Shown here: piece after piece, positions 19,264 through 45,364 of the stretch
How the letters are laid out: each line of letters starts with the position of its first letter
Numbering within the stretch: position 1 is the first letter of the stretch
Source: a virus
Direction: 5' to 3' (one strand)
IMG/VR virus record: IMGVR_UViG_3300047471_000357
Coordinates: 1-45,364 of that record
DNA: 45,364 nt
Translations under genes and position numbers: made by a program
The notes under the pieces: model-generated
Told to the model about the DNA's origin: nothing
The model's input: the letters and a program-made list of their open reading frames with translations, nothing else
Database searches by the model: none

Positions 19264-20721
19264 TCAGGCCGCAATGTGCAAACCACAGTCCCGACAGCGT
19301 GGACCGAGCGGATGCACGATCATGCGGACACTCTTGCAACGCTTGCACTGCCCATTCCAACGCGGGGCTTTGGTTCTTCCAAGTTCTTGCTGATCATGCA
19401 CTTGCAGCATAAGGTTGGGGTCCCACTTCTGCGCGCGCTCGTTTAGGTGAATCGTCAGCTTGCCGCGGTTGAACTCCGGCCCGCGGGAATTGTCATACGT
19501 TAGGCGCGGATCATGAAACAGTTCAATCCCATGCTGCCACATCCAGTAGCCGATGTCCGTGTCCTCGCCCCAATGCGAGACTTGATCCTGGGCAATGAGC
19601 ATCGCTGCCCGTGCCGACAGCCAGTATCCCATTCCACCATGCGGAGCCGTGTGGCTTTGCTTCGGGTGCGACACGCACGGAGGGCATTCGAAGCTGCGGC
19701 CGCTGAACTCATGCAGGAAGAAACTGCTGTCCGCCAGCCGGTCTGGGAACACATAGGTATCACTGAAAATGCGGAAAATCCAGTCATAACCGTGCTCGAG
19801 CGCCCACAGGAGACTAAAGCGTGTCTTGTAGATGAGACCAAAGTAACTATCGGGGCAATCGAGAACGACTTCCTGCTCTGCCAGTGGGGCAGTGTACAGT
19901 GGTACTTTTGACAGGGCGTTCGTAGGGTCTAATGGCCCTATGCTCGGTGGGCCTGGCGAGTCCATCGGAATAGGGAAAGAAGTACTCGGGTGCAAGCCTC
20001 CCAGGAAGAACCGCAGGTCCCATCCGGGCGGCATGTATCTGCCCCAAGTATCGCGGATGTTCTGGTTCGTGCCGTTCTTGGCATCGCGCCAGCAGGTCGA
20101 GCACGCGATCAACACCTTCTTGCTGCGCCCGTAGGTTTTGCACATATCCTCAGGGTCATATATGCCTGTTTGGCTGGATAAGTGCACGCTGATCAGGTCG
20201 TTGGCTGCGGTCGGTGCGGACTCCTTGCGCCCATAGGATTGCCCCATAGAATAGCGGCGATCGTGCGTGGGAGTGATGCCGCGCGCGAGCAGCGTCTCAC
20301 CTACCCATTGATCCTGAAGTTTGTGCGATTCCTTGGCTGGGTCTATTGCCGCTTCCGCGAGTATGCGCCCAGCAGATGCAGACAGCCAATAACCAGGACC
20401 TCCGTGGCAAAAATCAAACTCAACGCCGCCCATATCGGGAGGTCGCGGGAGATCCAAGGTAGAACCGACATAATCAGCCTCCGGTGCCGTCAGCCGTGAT
20501 GGCAGCACGAACGTGTCCGCATCGCAGCGGAAGATCATCTCGTACTGTTCCTTGACCGCCCATCGCAGCATCTCCCGCGTCTTAAGTGTCAGGTCGATCC
20601 AGAGTCCATCGGGGCAGTCGAGCCGCACTTCGTCCGGTTCCAGCTTGCCCGTTACTGTCTTGCCGTAGAAGATGCGATAATCGACCGTGGGCGGCAGATC
20701 CTTCAGCCACGTATCGCGCAA
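19264..20721 (-). CDS. Tandem glycosyltransferase (two GT31-like repeats)
   Basis: A 485-residue protein made of two related halves. Half one has IRDTW-like MRDTWLKDLPP, a DxD motif in FRCDADTFVLPSRL (about residues 64-77) and GYWLSASAGRILAEAA. Half two repeats these as NIRDTWGRYMPPG, FRIFSDTYVFPDRL (second DxD degenerate) and GYWLSARAAMLIAQ. This matches the beta-1,3-galactosyltransferase or fringe-like fold. The C-terminus has a zinc ribbon with two CxxC pairs (CKRCKS and CRDCGL). The annotated start is TTG 20721, but the frame is open to about 20784 and the preceding codons read SVILIGSCGKD, matching KKVLIACSTCWRD in half two. No ATG/GTG/TTG exists there; an ATT at 20784-20782 follows AAAAGG by seven bases. 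The true start is probably upstream. Confidence 0.8.
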   Translation of the reverse strand: MRDTWLKDLPPTVDYRIFYGKTVTGKLEPDEVRLDCPDGLWIDLTLKTREMLRWAVKEQYEMIFRCDADTFVLPSRLTAPEADYVGSTLDLPRPPDMGGVEFDFCHGGPGYWLSASAGRILAEAAIDPAKESHKLQDQWVGETLLARGITPTHDRRYSMGQSYGRKESAPTAANDLISVHLSSQTGIYDPEDMCKTYGRSKKVLIACSTCWRDAKNGTNQNIRDTWGRYMPPGWDLRFFLGGLHPSTSFPIPMDSPGPPSIGPLDPTNALSKVPLYTAPLAEQEVVLDCPDSYFGLIYKTRFSLLWALEHGYDWIFRIFSDTYVFPDRLADSSFFLHEFSGRSFECPPCVSHPKQSHTAPHGGMGYWLSARAAMLIAQDQVSHWGEDTDIGYWMWQHGIELFHDPRLTYDNSRGPEFNRGKLTIHLNERAQKWDPNLMLQVHDQQELGRTKAPRWNGQCKRCKSVRMIVHPLGPRCRDCGLHIAA

Positions 20722-22791: not shown

Positions 22792-23307
22792 GTGAAACGC
22801 CGACGCTACTACGGAAAAGAATTGATTCGCAGCAATCCCGTTTTGCTCCGCAAATATGGCAAGCTGGTCCGCTTCGTGGCTGACAAGTACGTGCGCTCGT
22901 TCCGCCTCACCCGGGAGCAGGGCGAGGACCTGTACCATTCCCTGCTGGCGGAAATGTTCAAGGCCAAGCGCGGCTATCGCAACTATAAAGGCATCTCGCT
23001 GATCCTGAAGCATAAGATGCGCGACATCATCGCACCGGCCATCAAGCATGAGCACGTTCTGCCCATCATGGAAATAGATTCGCCGCGCGTGGCGCCGACG
23101 ACGGTGCAGCTGGACGTGCAGGAGATGCTGCCGCACCTGGACGCGTTGCCCTTCTCGCAGCGGTTAGTGTTGGAATTGAACTTCGGGTTGGATGGCAGTG
23201 ATCCGTTTGGCGTCGAGCAGATTGCCCGCAAGCTCAAAAGGCCGACGGACTGGGTGACACGGCGCCGCGCGGAGGCGCTGGCAACATTGCGTTCCCGGTT
23301 AAGCTGA
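22792..23307 (+). CDS. Sigma-factor-like transcription protein (171 aa)
   Basis: A 171-residue plus-strand protein starting at GTG 22792. The end, LPFSQRLVLELNFGLDGSDP followed by GVEQIARKLKRPTDWVTRRR, closely follows region 4 of sigma-70 factors (the 'R-x-V-L-x-L-R-F-G-L ... I-A ... R-x-x-A-L' pattern). The middle (about residues 40-85), EDLYHSLLAEMFKAKRGYRN, resembles region 2. The size is close to T4 gp55 (185 aa). It would direct host RNA polymerase to phage promoters; a link to the CCGTTCTATC elements is only a hypothesis. Its 3' end overlaps the convergent RusA-like gene by 74 bases. Confidence 0.7.
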   Translation: MKRRRYYGKELIRSNPVLLRKYGKLVRFVADKYVRSFRLTREQGEDLYHSLLAEMFKAKRGYRNYKGISLILKHKMRDIIAPAIKHEHVLPIMEIDSPRVAPTTVQLDVQEMLPHLDALPFSQRLVLELNFGLDGSDPFGVEQIARKLKRPTDWVTRRRAEALATLRSRLS

Positions 23308-23638
23308 TTACCGTTATCTTTTGCGATCCCTTCCTCTGTGAAACGTGCAATTCGATATGCTCCGCCGTGTCGTCCGCCAATATCTCAAGGTTCACCAGAC
23401 TATCGAGTATAACCTTGGCGGCAGACACCAGGTTATCGGGGTCATAGAACTGCTTGTGCTGGATGCAGATATTCACCTCGACCTTGCCGCATAGTTTGGG
23501 CAGATGCTTCGACTTGATGTGCCAGCCCCAGTTATCCCGCAGCCGTTGGTACACGAACCGATTGCGATACTTTCGCCGCAATTGATTCGCACCCGGCGGC
23601 ACCATCGGAACACAGAAGGCATACTCTTTACAGGCCAC
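23234..23638 (-). CDS. RusA-family Holliday junction resolvase-like protein
   Basis: A 134-residue protein with the RusA signature YDPDNLVSAAKVILDSLV (Y65-D66-P67-D68-N69-L70 and K75) and ILADDTAEHIELHV (D89-D90). These Asp residues coordinate metal in RusA, which cuts Holliday junctions. The start is GTG 23638, overlapping the upstream gene by 11 bases. It lies in the recombination block with YqaJ and Erf-like proteins, consistent with resolving concatemer branches before packaging. The last 25 residues (Pro/Ala-rich) are outside the domain. Confidence 0.8.
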   Translation of the reverse strand: MACKEYAFCVPMVPPGANQLRRKYRNRFVYQRLRDNWGWHIKSKHLPKLCGKVEVNICIQHKQFYDPDNLVSAAKVILDSLVNLEILADDTAEHIELHVSQRKGSQKITVISLTGNAMLPAPPRGAVSPSPSAF

Positions 23639-23951
23639 GGGGCAAAGGCCTCCCGCAAGCTTTGCAGCACTGCCTCTTTATCTTCTCAAGTGTGCTTTTC
23701 GGTCCGTCCGTATAAAGCAGGTGAATGATAGTCGTATGGTGGCGGTTGAGCATTTTACCGATCTGCGTGAACGATGCCCCATTGATGCGGGCCAGCCGCA
23801 CAAACTCCCGCCGGATGGCCACCAGTGCCCATGAATTACCCCCACCACAGACTTCCTGCGGCGATCGCCCCGCCTGCAGGCAGACTACTTTCAGAATGGC
23901 TTCGAACTTGTCCTTGGCTTCCATGCCGTTAATTATCCTGCTCTCTCCCAT
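23628..23951 (-). CDS. Stand-alone DnaA domain IV-like DNA-binding protein
   Basis: A protein of about 107 residues (ATG 23951; an ATG at 23924 or TTG at 23966 are alternatives). The core WALVAIRREFVRLARINGAS then FTQIGKMLNRHHTTIIHLL follows the C-terminal DnaA domain (Bac_DnaA_C), including the 'I-G-x-x-x-x-R-x-H-T-T-V' helix-turn-helix signature. No ATPase domain is present. The C-terminus has CCKACG, possibly a metal knuckle. Directly upstream is a gene-free region with two perfect DnaA boxes, so binding at a phage origin is the natural inference. Confidence 0.75.
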   Translation of the reverse strand: MGESRIINGMEAKDKFEAILKVVCLQAGRSPQEVCGGGNSWALVAIRREFVRLARINGASFTQIGKMLNRHHTTIIHLLYTDGPKSTLEKIKRQCCKACGRPLPRGL

Positions 23952-23977
23952 GCGTACCCCTGTCAAGAATTAACATT

Positions 23978-23989
23978 TCCACATGTGGA
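23978..23989. repeat. 12-bp palindrome in the origin region
   Basis: TCCACATGTGGA is a perfect inverted repeat immediately upstream of the DnaA-like gene, and could be an operator or additional protein-binding site. Confidence 0.5.
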
Positions 23990-24002
23990 CCAATTTTGCC
24001 AC

Positions 24003-24011
24003 TTATCCACA
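24003..24011 (+). promoter_or_regulatory. DnaA box 1
   Basis: TTATCCACA matches the consensus bacterial DnaA box exactly. It is followed immediately by the TTTCCAAAGG tandem repeat. Confidence 0.7.
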
Positions 24012-24014
24012 GTT

Positions 24015-24035
24015 TTTCCAAAGGATTTCCAAAGG
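24015..24035. repeat. 11-bp tandem direct repeat in the origin region
   Basis: TTTCCAAAGG occurs at 24015-24024 and again at 24026-24035, a period of 11 bases close to one helical turn, directly after DnaA box 1. Confidence 0.6.
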
Positions 24036-24103
24036 CTTAAAATTCCATTAAGTCGCATATGTATCATGTACTTAACACCACTTTGTAACGAAAGTACCCA
24101 GTT

Positions 24104-24112
24104 TTATCCACA
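24104..24112 (+). promoter_or_regulatory. DnaA box 2
   Basis: A second exact TTATCCACA in the same orientation, 101 bases from the first. Confidence 0.7.
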
Positions 24113-24225
24113 GGCCTAAATTGGTTCTCCCCCAAAATCCGGTGTTATATTTCTTTGGAATCTTTCGTTGTTTTCGTCCCCCACTCCGTAAAAGAACAAA
24201 GAGCGGCTGCTAAGAGTCAACTTCC

Positions 24226-24498
24226 TCAAAAGTGCCCCGGGCAGCCGTGCAGATCATACTCGACGTGGCAGGACTTGCATAAGATCCACACATTATCGAG
24301 TGTGTCGCTGCCGCCCCTGCCGCGGGGCTTCTTGTGCGACAGTTCCAGCCACCATTGCGAGCCGCACTTTACGCAGCGGCCGCCGTCCCGGCTCATCGCC
24401 TGGCTGCGCAGCTTGGCCATGCCCTTAGCATTGAGGCGTATCGGCTTGTGCTTCGGAAAGGCGGCCTCGGTATAGGTGCCGTCCGTCATCTCACTCAC
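24226..24498 (-). CDS. HNH endonuclease (90 aa)
   Basis: A compact HNH nuclease with a zinc-binding frame: CVKCGSQWWLELSHKKP, then DNVWILCKSCHVEYDLH. The catalytic-type histidine is in LSHKK and the CxxC pairs bind the structural zinc. The start is taken as GTG 24498, five bases after GGAGG (24508-24504); ATG 24489 is an alternative. It begins eight bases before the end of the preceding gene. HNH proteins near packaging genes can aid cos cleavage, but this one sits beside the putative origin, so homing or recombination is as likely. Confidence 0.8.
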   Translation of the reverse strand: MSEMTDGTYTEAAFPKHKPIRLNAKGMAKLRSQAMSRDGGRCVKCGSQWWLELSHKKPRGRGGSDTLDNVWILCKSCHVEYDLHGCPGHF

Positions 24499-24730
24499 GT
24501 TCACCTCCCGCAGCTTTCCGAATCGCGTTATATTCCCCACACATATAAGCACTCGCCAATTCCTTGGCTAGAAATTTTGCCTGTTGATCGGCATCCATTT
24601 TGAATACCTTGAAGAAGCGGAGAATGGTTTCCGCTTTCCATGCGTACTTCTTGGCCAGTTCATCTTGCTGACGCTTGGCTCGTCCCGCGATCTGTCTCAC
24701 CTCCCGCGCACGCGGTTCAGTCTGGGTCAT
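24491..24730 (-). CDS. Small helical protein (79 aa)
   Basis: A 79-residue protein from ATG 24730 (overlaps the upstream TGA as ATGA, with GGAG eight bases before). It is rich in Arg, Lys, Gln and Ala and predicted helical, for example AKRQQDELAKKYAWKAETIL. No domain is recognised. It belongs to a chain of overlapping small early genes. Confidence 0.65.
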   Translation of the reverse strand: MTQTEPRAREVRQIAGRAKRQQDELAKKYAWKAETILRFFKVFKMDADQQAKFLAKELASAYMCGEYNAIRKAAGGERE

Positions 24731-24999: not shown

Positions 25000-25196
25000 T
25001 TTTGGCTCCTGGCTGCCATCGACTGTTCCACCTGCCACTTAGCGTGGCGCAGCGATTCCTCATGGGTATATATCCACGCCTCTTGAAGTGCCGCGATAGT
25101 GTCATCTAAGTTCCAATTGTTGCGAACGGCTTCTTTTGCGTATTCCATCGCGGCATTGGTCACTTGAGCGTAACCTGGGTTCCGTCCGATGCTCAC
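24996..25196 (-). CDS. Small hypothetical protein (66 aa)
   Basis: A 66-residue protein from GTG 25196, overlapping the upstream TGA (GTGA). The longer upstream open frame overlaps the previous gene and is not used. Sequence features: AMEYAKEAVRNNWNLDDTIA then ALQEAWIYTHEESLRHAKW, helical with many aromatic residues. Function unknown. Confidence 0.6.
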   Translation of the reverse strand: MSIGRNPGYAQVTNAAMEYAKEAVRNNWNLDDTIAALQEAWIYTHEESLRHAKWQVEQSMAARSQK

Positions 25197-25852
25197 CGCC
25201 TGCCTCCCTTCGCGGATTCGATGCTGTCGGCAATAGCGGCTTGCTCGGCGGCCCTCGCCTTCCGAATCCATTCCTCTAGTTTCCTGGCACCAGCTACTTC
25301 AAGTCCGGGGCATTCCCTGTAGACACGCGCATACGCCTCGGCTTCGACATTCTTCTTGATGCGCTCCAGCGATGGCTCCTTTAGAGCATTCGTCCAAGAG
25401 CCTAGAAAGGTCGCTAGGTCGCTCGGAGTGGCCAGCCCGCACGCATCTTTCCACGCCTGAACAGCCTCTTTGCGTATGCGCTCCAGCACGCCTGCGGAGT
25501 CGGGGGTGAGGGGCAGCGCGGCAATGTGTTCTCGCCATTGGTCCTTGATGGATACTTCACCGAAGTTGAAATCGAGTCCGCAGCTACAAGCAAATTGAGA
25601 AACTTCATCGTTGAACCATGTGCGCGTCAGGCAATGCTTGGTAGCTTCTCCGCGTGCAGCCAGTTCCCCGGCGAGCTTGGCGTCGGCGGTAGCGGCGGTG
25701 ATGAGGGGCAATAACTTTTCAACATCATGTCTGTAACGATTCCGCAAGTTCTCGTACTGCTCATCCCTGAGATAATCACCGTCAGGGGGCACAAGAATGT
25801 CAAGCATCCGCCCAACTAGCTCCTGCTCCCCCGCGCTGTGTTTGTCGGTCAT
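25193..25852 (-). CDS. Hypothetical protein (219 aa) of the recombination block
   Basis: A 219-residue, largely helical protein rich in Glu, Arg and Ala. It has a Cys cluster in the middle (FACSCGLDF, about residues 85-93) and no membrane segment. It starts at ATG 25852 in ATGA overlap with the YqaJ gene. It could be a nuclease- or recombinase-associated protein, but no family is recognised. Confidence 0.6.
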   Translation of the reverse strand: MTDKHSAGEQELVGRMLDILVPPDGDYLRDEQYENLRNRYRHDVEKLLPLITAATADAKLAGELAARGEATKHCLTRTWFNDEVSQFACSCGLDFNFGEVSIKDQWREHIAALPLTPDSAGVLERIRKEAVQAWKDACGLATPSDLATFLGSWTNALKEPSLERIKKNVEAEAYARVYRECPGLEVAGARKLEEWIRKARAAEQAAIADSIESAKGGRR

Positions 25853-26499
25853 GGCTTCCCGCCCACATCCAGGAGTTTGGCGCCGCTCACCTGGTTCAGA
25901 ATGGCCGCCACCTCATCGAGAAACTTCCACACCTCTTTTTCCATCTCGGCAATGCGGGCATCATCCCGCTGGAAACGTCTGACGAATAGCTGCAAGCCCT
26001 TGGGCAGGCGCGGATCGAAGCTCACGAAGTCGCACCACTGGCGCTCCGCACAGACCATCTCAGCGAGCATCTGCCATTCGTATTGAGACGGAACGATACC
26101 GGCGATGACGTACTCGATGTGCGTGGCAGTCTGCGGGCACTTGAACTCTACCAGGCCATCGCTGCCCACCAAGCCATCCGGTGAAGCGCCGAATCGCTCG
26201 ATCGTGGGATGCAGGGCAAATCCGACCTTCTCGACTTCCGCTACCTCGATTCCGTAGGCCTCGCGGGCAAAGGGTTCGTTGTCGATGCCCCACTCCATCG
26301 CCTGCGTAACGAAGTGCTCGGTGGCCTTTCCAGTCAGAATCTCGCAGATCAGCTGCGCCTTGTAGTCCTTGCGCTTCTGCGATTCCCCGCCGCCCTTTAG
26401 CTTGTTCATAACGTCCGCCACGCGGCTGCCCGTCACGCAGCCAATGCGCATTTGCAGCCATTCCGCGGTTTGCTGCTCGACGCCTTCAACGATTGGCAC
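25849..26499 (-). CDS. YqaJ-like viral exonuclease (lambda Exo family)
   Basis: A 216-residue nuclease of the PD-(D/E)XK superfamily. It shows RIGCVTGSR (residues 18-26), the conserved helix Glu in WGIDNEPFAREAYG (E75), and the core GASPDGLVGSDGLVEFKCP with D108, E118 and K120. Such enzymes resect double-stranded ends 5' to 3' so that an annealing protein can act. The start is GTG 26499 with GGAG seven bases before. It overlaps the Erf-like gene, forming the classic exonuclease plus annealing-protein pair. Confidence 0.88.
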   Translation of the reverse strand: MPIVEGVEQQTAEWLQMRIGCVTGSRVADVMNKLKGGGESQKRKDYKAQLICEILTGKATEHFVTQAMEWGIDNEPFAREAYGIEVAEVEKVGFALHPTIERFGASPDGLVGSDGLVEFKCPQTATHIEYVIAGIVPSQYEWQMLAEMVCAERQWCDFVSFDPRLPKGLQLFVRRFQRDDARIAEMEKEVWKFLDEVAAILNQVSGAKLLDVGGKP

Positions 26500-27229
26500 T
26501 GGCTATCTCCTTTTTGCGGGCATCGTGCACGGCGACAATTCGCGCCATGGCGGTGCCGTCCTGATGTTCACGCGCTTCATTGAACGCCTTGGCAAATACT
26601 ACCTTCAGATCCTCCGGTGTCGTTACGTCGCCCATCTGGCGGCAGTATTCTTCGATCGCGTCCGTCGCCATGCCCTTGCCGTTGGCAATGGTCTGCCCGT
26701 CGTTGTCGTTCTGCTCGGCCAGTCCGCACGCTGCCTTGAGCGTGTAGCGTTCCAGGTAGGTCACGGCCGAGGCGATGGCCTGAATGGCGTTCTTGTCGCC
26801 TGAATTGTCGGGTGCCGCCATGAGTGTGGTTTCCTCGCTGTGGCCGAGTTCATGGGTGAGCACGCACGTGACCCAGATGACATCCTTCTCCTGCTTGACG
26901 GTCCAGCGGTGCGTGATGCCCACCTGCGTGAGTCCGGCCGTGATGGCATCGCAGACGTGATCGAGCGTGGCATGCTTGTAGGTAACGACTCCGCCGGTTT
27001 TCTTGTTGTATTTGACCGTGGCATTCCTGGTGATGACGGTGGGGTTGGCCTTGAACTTGTTCATCGCCGCCGTATAGGCCTTCTTGGCCTCGGCTGCCTC
27101 CCATTCCTTTTTGAACGCCAGCAGGGCCATCAGCTTGGAGACATCCATATCAGGTGTGGCAATGGCACGTTCAACGAGAGAAATAAAACCGTTATCCTGC
27201 TCGGGCATCTTGGTCAGTTTGTCGCTCAT
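26486..27229 (-). CDS. Erf-family single-strand annealing recombinase
   Basis: A 247-residue protein from ATG 27229 (ATGA overlap with the preceding stop). The N-terminal half has YKHATLDHVCDAITAGLTQV, and SAVTYLERYTLKAACGLA lies at about residues 157-174. Both segments are hallmarks of Erf/Rad52-like annealing proteins (ERF superfamily). The C-terminal part is charged and helical. It promotes annealing of complementary single strands and probably works with the YqaJ exonuclease for circularisation or concatemer formation. Confidence 0.87.
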   Translation of the reverse strand: MSDKLTKMPEQDNGFISLVERAIATPDMDVSKLMALLAFKKEWEAAEAKKAYTAAMNKFKANPTVITRNATVKYNKKTGGVVTYKHATLDHVCDAITAGLTQVGITHRWTVKQEKDVIWVTCVLTHELGHSEETTLMAAPDNSGDKNAIQAIASAVTYLERYTLKAACGLAEQNDNDGQTIANGKGMATDAIEEYCRQMGDVTTPEDLKVVFAKAFNEAREHQDGTAMARIVAVHDARKKEIASANR

Positions 27230-27408
27230 GAGCGTTCCACTTTCTTGCCGCACTTGGGGCAGTATTTGTCGTGCGGGCTTAGGTTCCTTCCGCAGGTGCA
27301 CATATCCCTGGGGACCATCTCGGTTCCGTCGCGGTAGCAGAACTTGTCGTCACCGCTGGCGAGGGTGTTCTTGCACATCGGGCAGATCAGCAGCGTTTGT
27401 TTGCTCAT
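27226..27408 (-). CDS. Zinc-ribbon protein (60 aa)
   Basis: A 60-residue protein from ATG 27408 (GGGAG about seven bases upstream); longer frames in this reading frame overlap other genes. It contains CPMCKNTLASGDDKFC and later CTCGRNLSPHDKYCPKCG, which is two treble-clef or zinc-ribbon cysteine sets, typical of small nucleic acid- or protein-binding zinc proteins. Confidence 0.75.
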   Translation of the reverse strand: MSKQTLLICPMCKNTLASGDDKFCYRDGTEMVPRDMCTCGRNLSPHDKYCPKCGKKVERS

Positions 27409-32647: not shown

Positions 32648-33991
32648 ATGCCAGATGCCCCAGTAATCACTCCGTCGGCCCCTGTGTCTGCGCCTGCGGC
32701 ACCCGCACCTGTAATTACCACAGGTGGCGGCAGTCCCGCTCATGTTCCCGAGGCTCCCGTTGTCGATACGCCTGCGGTTGAAACGCCGGATAAGTTTGAG
32801 TTTTCCTTTGACGGCGACACCGAAAAGTACGAGTTCAAAGAGGACACGCCCGCCGAAGAATCGCCCAGCTATGACGCGAGCAAGCCCTTCGATGCCAAGT
32901 GGGAAGAACTGCTCAAGGCTGACCCCGAAGCACTGAAAGCCGTGAAGCAGGGCCACTATGAATTGCGGCAATGGAAAGGTTCTGGCTTCAAGACGCCCGC
33001 CGAACTGAAAGCCTACCGCGACCGCATCGACAAGCTGGGCGGACCGGAAAAGATGGAAGCCGAGTCAAAGGAATGGTCAACCGTTCTGAACCAGTTCCGG
33101 CAGGGCGATGAAGCCGTGCTTGACAGTTGGTTCAAGGACAATCCTGACGGCATGGCCAAGCTGTCCGGCCCCATGCTCGACCGCTTGCAGAAGCAGGCTC
33201 CACAGGTCTGGGCGCACCACATGGCCACTACGTTTATGGCGACCCTCCTGCGCCCGAATGCTCAGGGCCTTTCTTCCTTGGCTGCATTCAACCAGTTGTA
33301 CGACATCGTGGGAGAGAATTCCGGCGCGCGCAAGTTGCTAGATCAAATCGCCGAAACAATCAATGCTGTAGATAAGGCTGCGAAAAGCAGTCCAGAGGCA
33401 AAATCCAAGTCGGTCGACAGTGACCGCAAGCAACTTGATGTTGAGCGGCACACGCTCTATTTGCAGAAGGTCAACGTATCGGCGGAGCCGCTGATTAACT
33501 CCGCCGCCAAGCAAGCCCTTAAAGTTGCACTCAAGGGCCGCAAGGTTTCGAGCGAAGTCGAGGCCGACCTGCTCGCAGACATCAAAAAAGGCTTCAACGA
33601 ATTGCAGAAAGCCGATGGAACCTTTCAGGAGAATGCCCGTGACCTGCTCCGCTCGCAAGATACCGACCGCTTCCTGCGCGTTCTCAAGTCAGCGATTGCG
33701 CGCAATCTGCCCCGTGCGGCGCTGCGCGAGGTGCGCAAGTATCGCGGCATCAGCGGCGACAACCAGCAGCGCAAAGCTGAAGGACAGGCACGACAGGAGT
33801 CCGCGGGCGGCGCAGCTACGCAAGGCCAGCGCGTGCGCTACAGCGGCGCAATGAAGCAAGGCGGCCCGGACCCCGCCATCATCGACTATGCGGGAATGCG
33901 CGCGCAGTTCGGCCGCAAGGGCACCGAGGAAATGCTTGGCCGCAGAGAGTTCTTCAAGAAGGGCGGAGGCAGCACGGTGTTTTTCTGGTGA
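32648..33991 (+). CDS. Candidate capsid scaffolding protein (447 aa)
   Basis: A 447-residue protein with the typical scaffold composition: a Pro/Ala-rich acidic N-terminus (about residues 1-80), long charged helices in the middle (for example KAAKSSPEAKSKSVDSDRKQ) and a basic C-terminal helix region. It contains no membrane or signal segment. No scaffold gene lies beside the capsid gene, and this is the best candidate. Start ATG 32648 has GAGG six bases upstream. It overlaps the next gene by four bases (GTGA), making it the first gene of the plus-strand chaperonin operon. Confidence 0.6.
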   Translation: MPDAPVITPSAPVSAPAAPAPVITTGGGSPAHVPEAPVVDTPAVETPDKFEFSFDGDTEKYEFKEDTPAEESPSYDASKPFDAKWEELLKADPEALKAVKQGHYELRQWKGSGFKTPAELKAYRDRIDKLGGPEKMEAESKEWSTVLNQFRQGDEAVLDSWFKDNPDGMAKLSGPMLDRLQKQAPQVWAHHMATTFMATLLRPNAQGLSSLAAFNQLYDIVGENSGARKLLDQIAETINAVDKAAKSSPEAKSKSVDSDRKQLDVERHTLYLQKVNVSAEPLINSAAKQALKVALKGRKVSSEVEADLLADIKKGFNELQKADGTFQENARDLLRSQDTDRFLRVLKSAIARNLPRAALREVRKYRGISGDNQQRKAEGQARQESAGGAATQGQRVRYSGAMKQGGPDPAIIDYAGMRAQFGRKGTEEMLGRREFFKKGGGSTVFFW

Positions 33992-34776
33992 GCACGCGGA
34001 GTCAATTTTGGTCTGACGGCGGCGGTACACAGTCTGCTGCCATTGCCGCATTGATAATTCAGGGGAAACTGCCGCGCCCTGACTTAATCGCCATATCTGA
34101 CACTGAGCGCGAGAAAACGCATGTCTGGGAATACCTGGATCAGGTGATCTCGCCAGCGCTGGCCGCGGTCGGATTGAAGGTTGAGCGCGTTCCGAAAAGT
34201 GAGTTCGCGCGGGAGGACTTGTGGGAGGACTGGGGAAACAAAGACGAGCCGCAAATGCTGATGCCGGTGTTCATTGCCAATGCCGACGGCTCGACCGGAA
34301 GGCTTAAGACTCTTTGCTCGTCGCGCTGGAAACGCCGAGTCATGCAACGCTGGCTCCGCAAGCAGGGCGTGAAACAGTGCGACGCTTGGATTGGATTCAG
34401 CCTCGACGAAATGCGTCGCGTTCGGACTTCCGACGAACAGTGGTACCAGTTCCGCTACCCGCTCGTGTTCGACGTTCCGATGCGCCGCAGCGAATGCATT
34501 TCAGTCGTAGAAGCGATGGGCTGGCCGACCCCGCCGCGGAGTGCCTGCTATATGTGCCCGAACCGCGTGAACGCGGAGTGGGCAGACATGCAGCGGAACT
34601 GGCCCGCAGACTTCTCCAAGGCAGTAGCATTGGAGCGCGAGATGCAAATTCGCCGCCCAGATTTCTTTCTGCATCGGGCCTTGAAGACTTTGGACCAGAT
34701 TGACTTTGAAGGAGGCCAATTCTCGATGCTCGCAGGAGATGGCGAAATGTCCTGTACCGAAGGATGCTTCACATGA
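33988..34776 (+). CDS. PP-loop protein, PAPS reductase-like
   Basis: A 262-residue protein with the PP-loop motif SDGGGTQS (residues 9-16), typical of the PAPS reductase/ATP pyrophosphatase fold. Cysteines at 110, 131 and 170, a CxxC at 187-190 (SACYMCPNR) and a CxxxC near the C-terminus suggest an iron-sulfur or redox site. Sulfur transfer, for example in DNA phosphorothioation (DndC-like) or tRNA modification, is possible, but no partner genes are here. It starts at GTG 33988 and ends in ATGA overlap with groEL, so it is co-translated with the chaperonin genes. Confidence 0.75.
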   Translation: MSTRSQFWSDGGGTQSAAIAALIIQGKLPRPDLIAISDTEREKTHVWEYLDQVISPALAAVGLKVERVPKSEFAREDLWEDWGNKDEPQMLMPVFIANADGSTGRLKTLCSSRWKRRVMQRWLRKQGVKQCDAWIGFSLDEMRRVRTSDEQWYQFRYPLVFDVPMRRSECISVVEAMGWPTPPRSACYMCPNRVNAEWADMQRNWPADFSKAVALEREMQIRRPDFFLHRALKTLDQIDFEGGQFSMLAGDGEMSCTEGCFT

Positions 34777-36377
34777 GCAAACAGATCCTCTACGGCAGTG
34801 AAGCACGCGAAAAGATACTGGCCGGAGTGAATGCCCTGACCGATGCAGTTGCCGCAACGCTCGGCCCGGCCGGACGCAATGCCATCATCTACAATCGGCA
34901 CGACTGGCCGCTCTCAACCCGCGATGGCGTGACCGTGGCGAAAAGCATCTCGTTCGAAGATCTAGCCATGGATGCGGGCGCGCAGCTGGTGAAGCAGGCC
35001 GCCGCCAATACCGCCGAGCAGGCTGGCGATGGCACGACCACTTCCACCATTCTGGCGCGGGCCATCTACCGCGAGGGCATCCGTTTGATTGGCGAGAAAA
35101 CCAATCCCGTGGCACTCAAGCGCGGCATCGAGAAAGCTGTCGACTTCATCTGCAAGAAGGGCGGCGAACTCGATAAGCACGCGCAGCCAGTCATCGGTGA
35201 TGGCATTGTCGCCGTTGCCACTATTTCGGCCAACAACGATGCGGAGATTGGCTGCCTCATCGCGCAAGCCATTCGCAAGGCGGGGCGGGATGGCGTCATC
35301 ACAGTCGAGGAAAGCCGCACGCTCGAAACATCTCTGGAATCCGTCGAGGGCATGAAGCTGGATAGCGGTTACATCTCGCCCTACTTCGTGAACAATCCCG
35401 AGCGGCAAGAGGCTGTTTTAGAGGACTGCTTTCTATTGATCTGCGAGCAGAAGCTAGGCTCGCTGTCCACGGTCAAATCCCTGCTTGAGCAGGTCGCGCA
35501 ATCGGGCAAGCCTTTGTTTGTGATTGCGGAGGATGTCGAAGGCGAAGTGCTGCCAGTGCTGGTAGTGAATCAGATGCAGGGCAGGCTGGCATCCTGTGCG
35601 GTCAAGGCTCCCGGTGTCGGGGCATTCCGCAAGGAACTGCTGGGCGATATCGCCGCGCTGACGGGCGGGCGGGCAGTAGTGAACGATCTGGGCGCCACGC
35701 CAGAGAACGTCAAGCTGGCAGACTTGGGGCGGGCCAAGAAGATCATCGTGTCCCGCACTGCCACCACGATTATCGCGGATGATTCGAACAAGTCTGCAGT
35801 CGATGGGCGCATCTCGGCCATCCGCACGCAAATGAATCTGGGCGGCTCGGAATACGAAAAGGACCGCCTGCAGGAACGACTCGCCAAGCTATCGGGTGGC
35901 GTGTCCATTATCAAAGTGGGGGCAGGCTCGCAAGTTGAGATGAGCGAGAAGAAAGCCCGTATCGAGGATGCCCTGTTTGCCACGCGCTGCGCGGTCGAGG
36001 AAGGCATTGTGCCGGGCGGCGGCGTCACGCTGGCGCGGCTTGTCGGCATGTTTTACGATTCCGGCGTTGAATCTCAGGGCATGGGCCTTGTGATGAACGC
36101 GATGCAACAGCCGTTAATCGCCGTCGCCAATAATGCCGGTGAAGATGGCATGGACGTGCTAGACAAGGTTCTGCTAAATGGAAATTTCAATTTCGGCTTC
36201 AACGCACTGACCGGCGAATACGGAGACATGCTGGCAATGGGCATCCTCGATCCGGTCAAGGTAGTCCGCGTGGCGCTGCAGAATGCCGCATCCGTCGCCG
36301 CCACCATGCTCTTGACCGAGACGCTGATTATCGAATCCATCGAAGAAAAGAAAGCAGCCAAGCTGCCGGGAAGGTAA
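34773..36377 (+). CDS. groEL: Phage-encoded chaperonin GroEL (Cpn60)
   Basis: A full-length GroEL of 534 residues (ATG 34773, overlapping the upstream TGA as ATGA, with GAAGGA eight bases before). Conserved ATP-site motifs are all present: TLGPAGRN (29-36), the Asp of DGVTVA (51), GDGTTT (85-90, Asp 86), catalytic-type Asp 399 in RIEDALFATR, GGG at 415-417, and Asp 493 in GILDPVKV. The apical substrate/GroES-binding site GYISPYFVNNPE (199-210) is conserved. The C-terminus lacks the GGM repeat of bacterial GroEL and ends KKAAKLPGR. It should form an ATP-driven folding ring; capsid protein is the likely client. Phage EL is a known precedent, but in a far larger genome. Confidence 0.97.
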   Translation: MSKQILYGSEAREKILAGVNALTDAVAATLGPAGRNAIIYNRHDWPLSTRDGVTVAKSISFEDLAMDAGAQLVKQAAANTAEQAGDGTTTSTILARAIYREGIRLIGEKTNPVALKRGIEKAVDFICKKGGELDKHAQPVIGDGIVAVATISANNDAEIGCLIAQAIRKAGRDGVITVEESRTLETSLESVEGMKLDSGYISPYFVNNPERQEAVLEDCFLLICEQKLGSLSTVKSLLEQVAQSGKPLFVIAEDVEGEVLPVLVVNQMQGRLASCAVKAPGVGAFRKELLGDIAALTGGRAVVNDLGATPENVKLADLGRAKKIIVSRTATTIIADDSNKSAVDGRISAIRTQMNLGGSEYEKDRLQERLAKLSGGVSIIKVGAGSQVEMSEKKARIEDALFATRCAVEEGIVPGGGVTLARLVGMFYDSGVESQGMGLVMNAMQQPLIAVANNAGEDGMDVLDKVLLNGNFNFGFNALTGEYGDMLAMGILDPVKVVRVALQNAASVAATMLLTETLIIESIEEKKAAKLPGR

Positions 36378-36379
36378 CT

Positions 36380-36976
36380 ATGTCAGGGGACAAACTCGCA
36401 TCGGGCGGACGCTCCGCCACATTCACGCAAGCCGCGGGGCAGAACGAACTTGACCACGATCTGAAAACGCAGTCGATGCCCTACTGCCTAGAGCATTGGG
36501 CGATCGACGAGGCGGAGTACAAGCGGCTGTGCTTTCTGATCTCTAGGCGGGAGCCGCTGCCGCAAGTCGGGCGCCGCTATCGAATCGAAGTCGTTGCAGA
36601 TTTAATGATTCCACGTGAAACATCGGAACCTCAACCTATTGCCCCCACAGTAGGTTACGAGGGCCAACCCGTCGGAGACTCCGTGCTCGTCACCCGCGTC
36701 GAACGCGAGCACAGCAGCAACTTAGTGCTGCCCGACAGCATGAAGGCCAAAAGCGAGATTGGCTTTATCGTGGCCGTGGGCGAGAAGGTCGCGGACTTCA
36801 AGGTGGGGCAGATGGTCATGTGGGACAAATTCGCAAGTCACGGGGCGGATATTGAACTGGTGGATGCGGATGGCGTCGAGCGCAAGCTACTACTGCTAAA
36901 GAGCTTCGACATCCTCATGGCGCTGCGGAAAGTTACCGTTTCGGGCCAAACGGCACCCGAGCCTTCGCAGGCTTAG
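36380..36976 (+). CDS. groES: Phage-encoded GroES-like co-chaperonin with N-terminal extension
   Basis: A 198-residue protein beginning two bases after the groEL stop, with GGAAGG upstream. Residues about 97-183 align with GroES (VGDSVLVTRVEREHSSNLVL and the end LLLLKSFDILMALR); the mobile loop holds NLVL (114-117), equivalent to the IVL tripeptide that docks on GroEL. The first about 95 residues are absent from bacterial GroES and have no recognised domain. The cap likely works with the GroEL above, as T4 gp31 does with host GroEL. The gene overlaps the convergent gene at 36933-38345 by 44 bases. Confidence 0.88.
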   Translation: MSGDKLASGGRSATFTQAAGQNELDHDLKTQSMPYCLEHWAIDEAEYKRLCFLISRREPLPQVGRRYRIEVVADLMIPRETSEPQPIAPTVGYEGQPVGDSVLVTRVEREHSSNLVLPDSMKAKSEIGFIVAVGEKVADFKVGQMVMWDKFASHGADIELVDADGVERKLLLLKSFDILMALRKVTVSGQTAPEPSQA

Positions 36977-43302: not shown

Positions 43303-44796
43303 TTAGGAGATCCTGGTGACGCGAAGGTAGCTATTCGTCTTGAGAAACCAGGCTTGCGAGGCCTGCACGCCTTTGACCTGCACACCGAGCGTTGGTGATC
43401 CGGAACCCGGCGCGACGACGATGCCCGAGACAATCACGCTCTGCGGCCCCACCACTACGTTCAACGGAGTTGTGACCGAGATTCCCTGCGCGACCTGATT
43501 GAATGACAGTGCAGCAGCGGCACTCTGATAGCCCAATACGATGCCCTGAATGTTGGCGCCGGACACGCTGCACTGCACCCCGACCTGTACGCCCTGCACG
43601 CCAGCTGCGGCTTGCAGTCCGAGGCGTCCGTAGTATTCGTAGGTCGCGCTCTGCGCCAGGCTGATCCCAGCAAATACGTCCGTGACAGTCTGGGCGTTGG
43701 CCGTGGTCTGGTTGCCCTGCACCGAGAATACAGGAATCACGCCGGTGAGATTGACGTTTGCCCCGCTGCGCGCCACCACCGCCTGATCGCCAATCTGCGA
43801 GGGCAGACCGTTCGACATCGCGGATATTTTCGTGTCGCCTGCGGTGCCGCTGGCCTGGTTTCCCTGATTGCCTTGATTCCCTTGGTTGCCTTGATTTCCC
43901 TGGTTGCCCTGCGGACCTTGCGCGCCACCAGAACCGACTGCGCCGATGATTGCAAAGCCCACCGCCACGTTCGCCCCATTGGCAAAAGGCGTGTTCGCGG
44001 AAGTGTGCGAGGTTCCGGTGCAAACATAATAGTTTCCCGACAGCACCGCGGACGTGAAGGTGAACAGGAAGAACTTGCTGTTATCCGTTTCGACAAACAC
44101 CTGGAAGGTGCTGCCATAAGCAGAAGTCACCGAACTCAGGATGTTGGTCAGATCGACGCCGTTGCGGTCCTTCGACGTGATGTACATGTTGCTGGCCGAA
44201 GATGGAGCGGCGTTATCGAGGCGCACGGTGCCGTCATTGCTCGACGGGGCGCTGGTGCTGGTGCTGAAGGTGTAGAGCAGCGAGACGGCGCCGGTCGCAC
44301 CTTGATTCCCCTGATTGCCCTGCGTCCCCTGGTTGCCCTGGTTGCCTTGATTACCCTGATTACCCTGGTTTCCTTGGTTGCCCTGCGATCCGGTCGCGCC
44401 GGTGGTTCCCTGCGTGCCTTGCGTGCCTTGCGTACCCTGATTGCCTTGATTGCCCTGTGAACCCGTTGCGCCGGTCGTGCCTTGGGTTCCTTGCGTCCCT
44501 TGAGTTCCCTGTGTCCCCTGGGTCCCCTGCGCGCCTTGGTCGCCCTGATTCCCCTGTGCGCCAGCCGCACCCGTGGTTCCCTGGAATCCTTGATGTCCTT
44601 GCGTGCCCTGATCGCCCTGCGTGCCTTGAGGTCCAGCGGCTCCCTGATCGCCCTGATGGCCCTGGGTGCCTTGCGTACCTTGGACTCCCTGCGTCCCCTG
44701 ACTTCCTTGCGGTCCGGTAGAGCCTTGCGTCCCCTGATGCCCTTGCGGGCCTTGCGGCCCCTGGATGGATACGATCGGGTAAGAGTCTAAAGACAT
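43303..44796 (-). CDS. Collagen-like tail fibre protein (497 aa)
   Basis: A 497-residue protein with 12 leading residues then about 53 Gly-X-Y triplets (residues about 13-171), mostly GTQ, GNQ and GPQ, and a second block of GNQ triplets at about residues 290-315. Proline is rare, and Gln fills the Y position, unlike animal collagen. The rest is beta-rich (VSLLYTFSTSTSAPSSNDGT). Collagen-like triple helices form trimeric stalks of phage fibres. It follows a small beta protein in TGATG overlap. Thr in the X position could be a glycosylation site. Confidence 0.8.
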   Translation of the reverse strand: MSLDSYPIVSIQGPQGPQGHQGTQGSTGPQGSQGTQGVQGTQGTQGHQGDQGAAGPQGTQGDQGTQGHQGFQGTTGAAGAQGNQGDQGAQGTQGTQGTQGTQGTQGTTGATGSQGNQGNQGTQGTQGTQGTTGATGSQGNQGNQGNQGNQGNQGNQGTQGNQGNQGATGAVSLLYTFSTSTSAPSSNDGTVRLDNAAPSSASNMYITSKDRNGVDLTNILSSVTSAYGSTFQVFVETDNSKFFLFTFTSAVLSGNYYVCTGTSHTSANTPFANGANVAVGFAIIGAVGSGGAQGPQGNQGNQGNQGNQGNQGNQASGTAGDTKISAMSNGLPSQIGDQAVVARSGANVNLTGVIPVFSVQGNQTTANAQTVTDVFAGISLAQSATYEYYGRLGLQAAAGVQGVQVGVQCSVSGANIQGIVLGYQSAAAALSFNQVAQGISVTTPLNVVVGPQSVIVSGIVVAPGSGSPTLGVQVKGVQASQAWFLKTNSYLRVTRIS

Positions 44797-45125
44797 CAGC
44801 TATTCTCCTGCCCAAAGAGATTGAAGGATGAGGTGCCATTCGCGGACGTGACCTTGATCACATCGCCATTTGCCAGCGTCAGGCCCGCCGTCAGGTCCAC
44901 GGTGCCGTTCGGCATCACCGGCAGCCCGGCGAAAACAAGCTGTTTCGGGTCGTCGCCCACTCCGCCGATGTTGATTCGCACGGTCACGGCATCAGCAACC
45001 GAATTATCCGAGTTGCACACCAGCAGCGAGGAAATGACCACCGATGACGTGGCGCAGGTGTAGAGCGTCGTCTGCGCTGCCGCGCTCGGTGCCAGTTGCG
45101 CCAGGACTCGGTAGATCGCCGCCAT
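44796..45125 (-). CDS. Small beta-structured virion protein (109 aa)
   Basis: A 109-residue protein with an ordered beta pattern (SVADAVTVRINIGGVGDDPK, then VMPNGTVDLTAGLTLANGDV). It closely resembles small capsid- or fibre-associated proteins of many environmental phages. It starts one base before the stop of the collagen-like small protein and ends in TGATG overlap with the collagen-like fibre. Assignment as virion component is inferred from context. Confidence 0.65.
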   Translation of the reverse strand: MAAIYRVLAQLAPSAAAQTTLYTCATSSVVISSLLVCNSDNSVADAVTVRINIGGVGDDPKQLVFAGLPVMPNGTVDLTAGLTLANGDVIKVTSANGTSSFNLFGQENS

Positions 45126-45364
45126 CTATCCTCCCATCACTAAAAAGTCCATGGCAAAGTCGCCGCTGCCGCTGCCCCCGCCGCCTTGCGGTCCCTGCGC
45201 GCCTTGCGGACCCGTTGCTCCTGCCGGTCCCTGCGGTCCTGCCGTTCCGCCGCCCGCCGCCGACATGGTTTGTACCTGCGCGGTCAATTGCCCCATGGCG
45301 TTGTTCACGTCGTCGAACATTTCCGCGACGAGGTGGCCCTTGAGCGTCCCCTGCACGCCCACCA
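45126..45364 (-). CDS. Small collagen-like virion protein, C-terminal part (split by window ends)
   Basis: This is the 3' part of the gene that starts at 152 on the circle. The visible part holds FDDVNNAMGQLTAQVQTM, a Gly-X-Y block (GPQGPAGATGPQGAQGPQGG) and a C-terminus ending DFAMDFLVMGG. The stop is TAG 45128-45126. The gene ends one base before the start of the 109-residue protein. As in the first fragment, a fibre or tail accessory role is inferred. Confidence 0.75.
   Translation of the reverse strand, partial: VGVQGTLKGHLVAEMFDDVNNAMGQLTAQVQTMSAAGGGTAGPQGPAGATGPQGAQGPQGGGGSGSGDFAMDFLVMGG
45238..45364. repeat. Terminal direct repeat (right copy)
   Basis: Identical to bases 1-127; see the left copy. 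It supports circular closure of the contig. Confidence 0.95.

Follow-up and report, generated by a model that had tools for sequence, protein, structure and literature searches.

The DNA analysed here, called the window below, is a complete phage genome of 45,364 nucleotides (IMG/VR record IMGVR_UViG_3300047471_000357). A 127-bp exact repeat occupies both ends of the record, which can therefore be closed into a circle of 45,237 bp; since the record of a related phage, G003, ends in a terminal repeat of equal length (127 bp), the repeat is most likely an assembler overlap. On the minus strand the genome carries the gene of P0001, a small stand-alone protein resembling domain IV of DnaA, and between this gene and the next one upstream, which encodes an HNH endonuclease, lies an AT-rich non-coding gap that is a candidate replication origin (Table 1). 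The gene of a RusA-like Holliday junction resolvase overlaps that of P0001 by 11 bp in the same transcript direction, and a YqaJ exonuclease and an ERF single-strand annealing protein belong to the same early module. Close relatives of the annealing protein, the exonuclease, the resolvase and a 219-aa ORF of the same region (25193-25852) were sought in IMG/VR and none was found. The 219-aa product was also compared with an ORF of another related phage, G004, suspected of encoding a helicase loader, and no similarity was seen.

Table 1. Features of the locus, with further genes and loci mentioned in the text (positions in the window unless a contig is named).
Feature	Position	Strand	Evidence or remark
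Galactosyltransferase-like protein	19264-20721	-	
Sigma-70 region-4-like protein	22792..23307	+	phrog_351, E=3e-4; homologues in all three relatives
RusA-like Holliday junction resolvase	23234..23638	-	phrog_1682, E=1.8e-8
P0001, stand-alone DnaA domain IV-like protein	23628..23966	-	PF08299 and structural matches
AT-rich non-coding gap, candidate replication origin	23967..24225		GC, stability, repeats
Palindrome TCCACATGTGGA	23978..23989		two inverted TCCACA box cores, head to head
Inverted 8-mers ACCAATTT (23989) / AAATTGGT (24118)	23989..24125		flank both boxes; genome's sole copies
Perfect DnaA box 1, TTATCCACA	24003..24011	+	followed by G
11-bp tandem repeat TTTCCAAAGGA, x1.9	24015..24035	+	two TTCCAAAG copies one helical turn apart
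Candidate unwinding element	24036..24096		lies between the boxes; no other 60 bp of the genome are less stable (nearest-neighbour stability)
Inverted 8-mers AACGAAAG (24087) / CTTTCGTT (24162)	24087..24169		genome's sole copies
Perfect DnaA box 2, TTATCCACA	24104..24112	+	same orientation as box 1, 101 bp from it
Third copy of TTCCAAAG	24153..24160	-	inverted
HNH endonuclease	24226..24552	-	PF01844, E=8.8e-7
YqaJ exonuclease	25849..26499	-	PF09588, E=3.7e-24
ERF single-strand annealing protein	26486..27301	-	PF04404, E=4.9e-14
PAPS reductase-like protein	33988-34776	+	
GroEL-like and GroES-like proteins, adjacent genes	34764-36976	+	
Long runs of 9-bp based repeats	43854-45239		
NRHHTTII-class DnaA domain IV proteins, examples	L002:3875-4303, L003:1300-1602, L004:3785-4243		
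O/DnaD-like gene of G001	L030:1913-2572		33-bp tandem repeat inside (2218-2290)

The domain assignment of P0001 is supported by both sequence and predicted structure. Read from a TTG codon its ORF comprises 112 aa, while an AGGGG placed 5 nt upstream of the ATG at 23951 suggests that translation more likely begins there, giving a protein of 107 aa. The Pfam family Bac_DnaA_C (PF08299) matches it with E=7.4e-8 and 32.8 bits, the curated cut-off being 31.5. An AF2 model was obtained at moderate confidence (mean pLDDT 70), and the top eight Foldseek matches of this model are all DnaA, with weak E-values of 0.06-0.8; in VIA-align the six best structures are again DnaA (Z 10.1-10.9, with 73-85 residues aligned at rmsd 2.9-6.8), and the next, an unrelated chain, follows at 6.9. 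Structural comparison of the predicted model thus gives P0001 the fold of DnaA domain IV. It is not a full DnaA initiator: domain IV alone is matched, the AAA+ domain III and domain I are absent, and TIGR00362 scores 18 bits against a cut-off of 343.9. PDB sequence matches reaching 3.5e-17, which would have made P0001 TAL-effector-like, proved to be an artefact, being sums of many repeat matches of less than 11 bits each.

The initial annotation had described the protein as the DNA-binding part of DnaA only, and the PF08299 match and the DnaA-only top structures bear this out. It had also remarked that the phage shows no polymerase, primase or helicase. Indeed none of these, nor any O-like protein, turned up when Pfam and/or PHROGs were run on the main ORFs, a set that covers the early region and, elsewhere, the ORFs of about 500 aa or more with part of the smaller ones; several ORFs are matchless. 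Among the early ORFs, no O-like or DnaD-like protein was found.

The gap itself measures 259 bp and has a GC content of 39.8% in a genome of 59%. It holds the 200 bp of lowest GC in the whole genome (37% vs 59%, z -5.6) as well as its least stable 100 bp, which begin at 24008. Only two perfect TTATCCACA boxes occur genome-wide, both of them here, and when the gap was shuffled 20,000 times with its dinucleotides kept, no such pair arose (mean 0.0032; P<5e-5). Four of the genome's 12 TCCACA cores also fall within this 0.6% of its length, a count reached by no shuffle out of 20,000. All three genomic copies of TTCCAAAG lie in the gap, two of them 11 bp apart and the third inverted, and its repeated 8-mers exceed those of the shuffles (P about 0.004). 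The initial annotation, which spoke of some 260 bases with two perfect boxes, an 11-bp tandem repeat and a palindrome, was accurate on each element and on its position. Perfect boxes are therefore found beside an AT-rich stretch of low stability, as in origins of the P1 oriR/pSC101 type. As a single strand the gap folds in no unusual way (z -0.73), and Rfam gives no match.

Does P0001 itself read these boxes? Its residues, numbered by alignment to E. coli DnaA, include R407, H434, T435 and T436, but R399 is replaced by N, P423 by T and D433 by H, and R442 and K443 are lost, so that the box-reading set R399, P423, D433, H434 and T435 has become N, T, H, H and T. Neither Lys nor Arg occurs anywhere in the 399 loop, so the loss of R399 does not depend on the details of the alignment. 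This arginine, present in all 15 other phage DnaA domain IV proteins compared, is the residue that reads the 5′ TTA of the box, and the E. coli R399A mutant shows a defect in binding to boxes (PMC5742627). From its residues, P0001 is accordingly judged unlikely to bind TTATCCACA. P0001 has in common with a class of phage DnaA domain IV proteins the motif NRHHTTII, which replaces GGRDHTTV (D433H), a change that suggests altered box reading. The only relatives recovered for it from IMG/VR were four distant proteins of this class, and no homologues were found in GTDB genomes, phage records or plasmids.

These substitutions bear on the proposal, made in the initial annotation, that P0001 might compete with host DnaA and so switch replication to the phage. 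In a wider form, the boxes would titrate host DnaA, or P0001 would compete at oriC, and host replication would be turned off. Perfect high-affinity boxes and a DnaA-like binding domain are what such a sink or switch would use. However, two boxes per genome would titrate little unless the copy number were high, and a protein devoid of R399, P423 and D433 is poorly equipped to read a box, which disfavours competition with host DnaA there; we hold this explanation to be quite improbable.

A likelier role for P0001 would be at other repeats, such as TTCCAAAG, or as a transcription factor comparable to GafA. The latter possibility is the main rival to an origin: the gap would be a promoter or operator, and P0001 would belong with the transcription factors of the GafA/GafY type, working with RNA polymerase, perhaps together with the neighbouring sigma-region-4-like protein. 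GafA, compared here through its published description, is an activator of GTA promoters with a DnaA domain IV-like DNA-binding domain outside any DnaA; this N-terminal domain likewise lacks R399 (E8), and the sigma-like other half of the protein binds GafA's own promoter region (PMC9638019). A sigma-like HTH is also predicted for GafZ (PMC11150451). The gene of P0001 is two genes away from the sigma-like gene, and the 11-bp spacing of the repeats would suit an operator. GafA is however a protein of 382 aa with two DNA-binding domains, against about 107 aa for P0001, in which H434, T435 and T436 are kept. The sigma-like or omega-binding part that is paired with or fused to GafA/GafY might correspond to the nearby sigma-like gene, which lies on the opposite strand; as this gene is kept in three of three relatives that lack any DnaA domain IV, the two do not form an obligate pair. 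In the gap, the minus strand shows no sigma-70-like promoter, and the two perfect DnaA boxes would be left unexplained. We therefore regard a GafA-like factor and its operator as possible, on the doubtful side.

Comparison with related phages sheds light on how the locus came to be there. In three phages whose TerL is 60-68% identical (G001, G003 and G004), most virion genes are found again, as are the sigma-like gene and the GroEL/GroES pair. None of the early genes at 23.2-32.2 kb has a counterpart in any of the three, and neither a DnaA domain IV protein nor a pair of perfect DnaA boxes was found in them; the phage's early and replication module thus appears to have been swapped in. G003 instead encodes an O-like initiator (phrog_678, 7e-15), and its resolvase, at the position that RusA holds in the phage, is RuvC-like. 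G001 has a weaker O/DnaD-like match (phrog_270, 9e-4) beside its sigma-like gene, 5.7-6.3 kb upstream of TerL, compared with 5.0-5.6 kb for P0001 and the gap, and in G004 no initiator was recognised. From this we infer an exchange of the whole early and replication module, in which P0001 and the gap would stand in for an O-type initiator and its origin. The sigma-70 region-4-like gene forms the conserved edge of the exchanged module, and its product is possibly a late-gene regulator.

Several other genes were noted in passing. The GroEL-like and GroES-like genes, adjacent and kept in three of three relatives, are unusual in a genome of 45 kb. The PAPS reductase-like protein has a counterpart 80% identical in G003 and is absent from G001 and G004, the galactosyltransferase-like protein beside the terminase region is conserved in the relatives, and the long runs of 9-bp based repeats perhaps encode a collagen-like or similar repetitive protein. 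TerL matches in GTDB are distant clostridial ones only and give no host assignment.

Stand-alone DnaA domain IV proteins are already annotated in phages of Pelagibacter, Flavobacterium, Sulfitobacter, Microcystis, Rhizobium and Aurantimonas, among others; what was not met elsewhere is the combination with a pair of boxes. None of 12 reference phages encoding the domain has a perfect box pair, and none has a perfect box near the gene. In IMG/VR, where at least 120 loci have a box pair like this one, the DNA examined encodes a DnaA domain IV at 0 of the 120 listed. On contig L003, from an unrelated virus, the DnaA domain IV gene overlaps an O-like initiator gene (1300-2296), and a single perfect DnaA box follows its stop codon by 34 nt. 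Without recurrence the two features need not be linked: their pairing in this genome may be functional, yet it does not appear to be a conserved module.

The cumulative GC skew, whose minimum the initial annotation expected near 24.1 kb if an origin were there, offers no help. The minimum lies at 26,735, and around 24.1 kb there is no switch, the values being negative to either side. As the skew minima of the relatives are not at their O-like genes, skew is uninformative in this group. The displaced minimum and the isolated pairing would nevertheless agree with mere coincidence, that is, an AT-rich regulatory gap whose boxes are inherited or fortuitous, next to an incidental HTH gene, with the origin elsewhere. 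The shuffle statistics for boxes, cores and repeats, together with the overlap with the genome's site of lowest stability, argue against this explanation, which like the sink or switch is less likely and which we consider improbable.

In our best reading, to which we give a probability of about one half, the gap holds an origin built on host DnaA boxes, with P0001, of altered specificity, as an accessory or regulatory protein. The gap is most likely the phage replication origin. Host DnaA would bind the two perfect boxes, aided by the inverted TCCACA pair, and would open the AT-rich DNA that separates them, bringing the helicase and replisome of the host to the site; the phage itself would supply exonuclease, annealing protein and resolvase for making recombination-dependent concatemers. 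P0001 would be the module's own DNA-binding protein, encoded near the site of the O-like initiator in a related phage. Lacking the minor-groove arginine, it would probably bind other repeats of the gap, the best candidate being the three copies of TTCCAAAG, and would help or regulate initiation or its own transcript. The earlier suggestion that the phage may recruit host DnaA machinery thus stands as the most economical account of an AT-rich gap with boxes and inverted cores, a genome with no phage replisome and a position near the O-like slot of the relatives, while the skew check proposed in its favour failed. Counted against the origin reading are the presence of only two strong boxes and the fact that no relatives carrying the phage's own early module were found. 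A bolder version, which we offer tentatively, is a hybrid origin where host DnaA would occupy TTATCCACA and a respecialised phage DnaA domain IV the adjacent TTCCAAAG, so that a phage initiator would have evolved from the DnaA DNA-binding domain alone and, in this group of related phages, would have changed places with an O-like one.

Phages without replication enzymes must capture the host replisome, and small DnaA domain IV genes are annotated in many phages without a known mechanism. Such a gene beside a recognisable AT-rich DnaA-box region, with relatives that carry another early module, allows direct tests of the role of the domain and of a switch between origins of the O and DnaA-box types.

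Among known systems, pelagiphages of the HTVC010P type (HTVC035P gp24, HTVC100P gp21, HTVC010P gp46) also encode a stand-alone DnaA domain IV, and share an early operon order of nuclease, annealing protein, small genes and DnaA domain IV last. In HTVC035P and HTVC100P the annotation of the protein reads “DNA replication initiation”, and HTVC010P has no annotated replisome gene. These proteins differ in their length of about 175-185 aa and in keeping R399 and D433, and their upstream gap has no DnaA boxes. Origins of the lambda O type, with repeats inside the initiator gene, have possible counterparts in the same general region of two of the related phages, one of which has tandem repeats inside its O/DnaD-like gene, a lambda-ori-like arrangement; our phage, in contrast, has no O-like protein, and the DnaA boxes of its candidate origin lie in non-coding DNA. 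Host DnaA boxes also serve the iteron origins of the phage/plasmid P1 (oriR), pSC101 and RK2, whose Rep proteins are winged-helix initiators with proven iterons. Compared with these, the phage protein is DnaA domain IV-like, and its putative repeats amount to only two tandem copies and one inverted; the likeness lies in the association of an AT-rich stretch, host DnaA boxes and short repeats with a small element-coded DNA-binding protein alongside.
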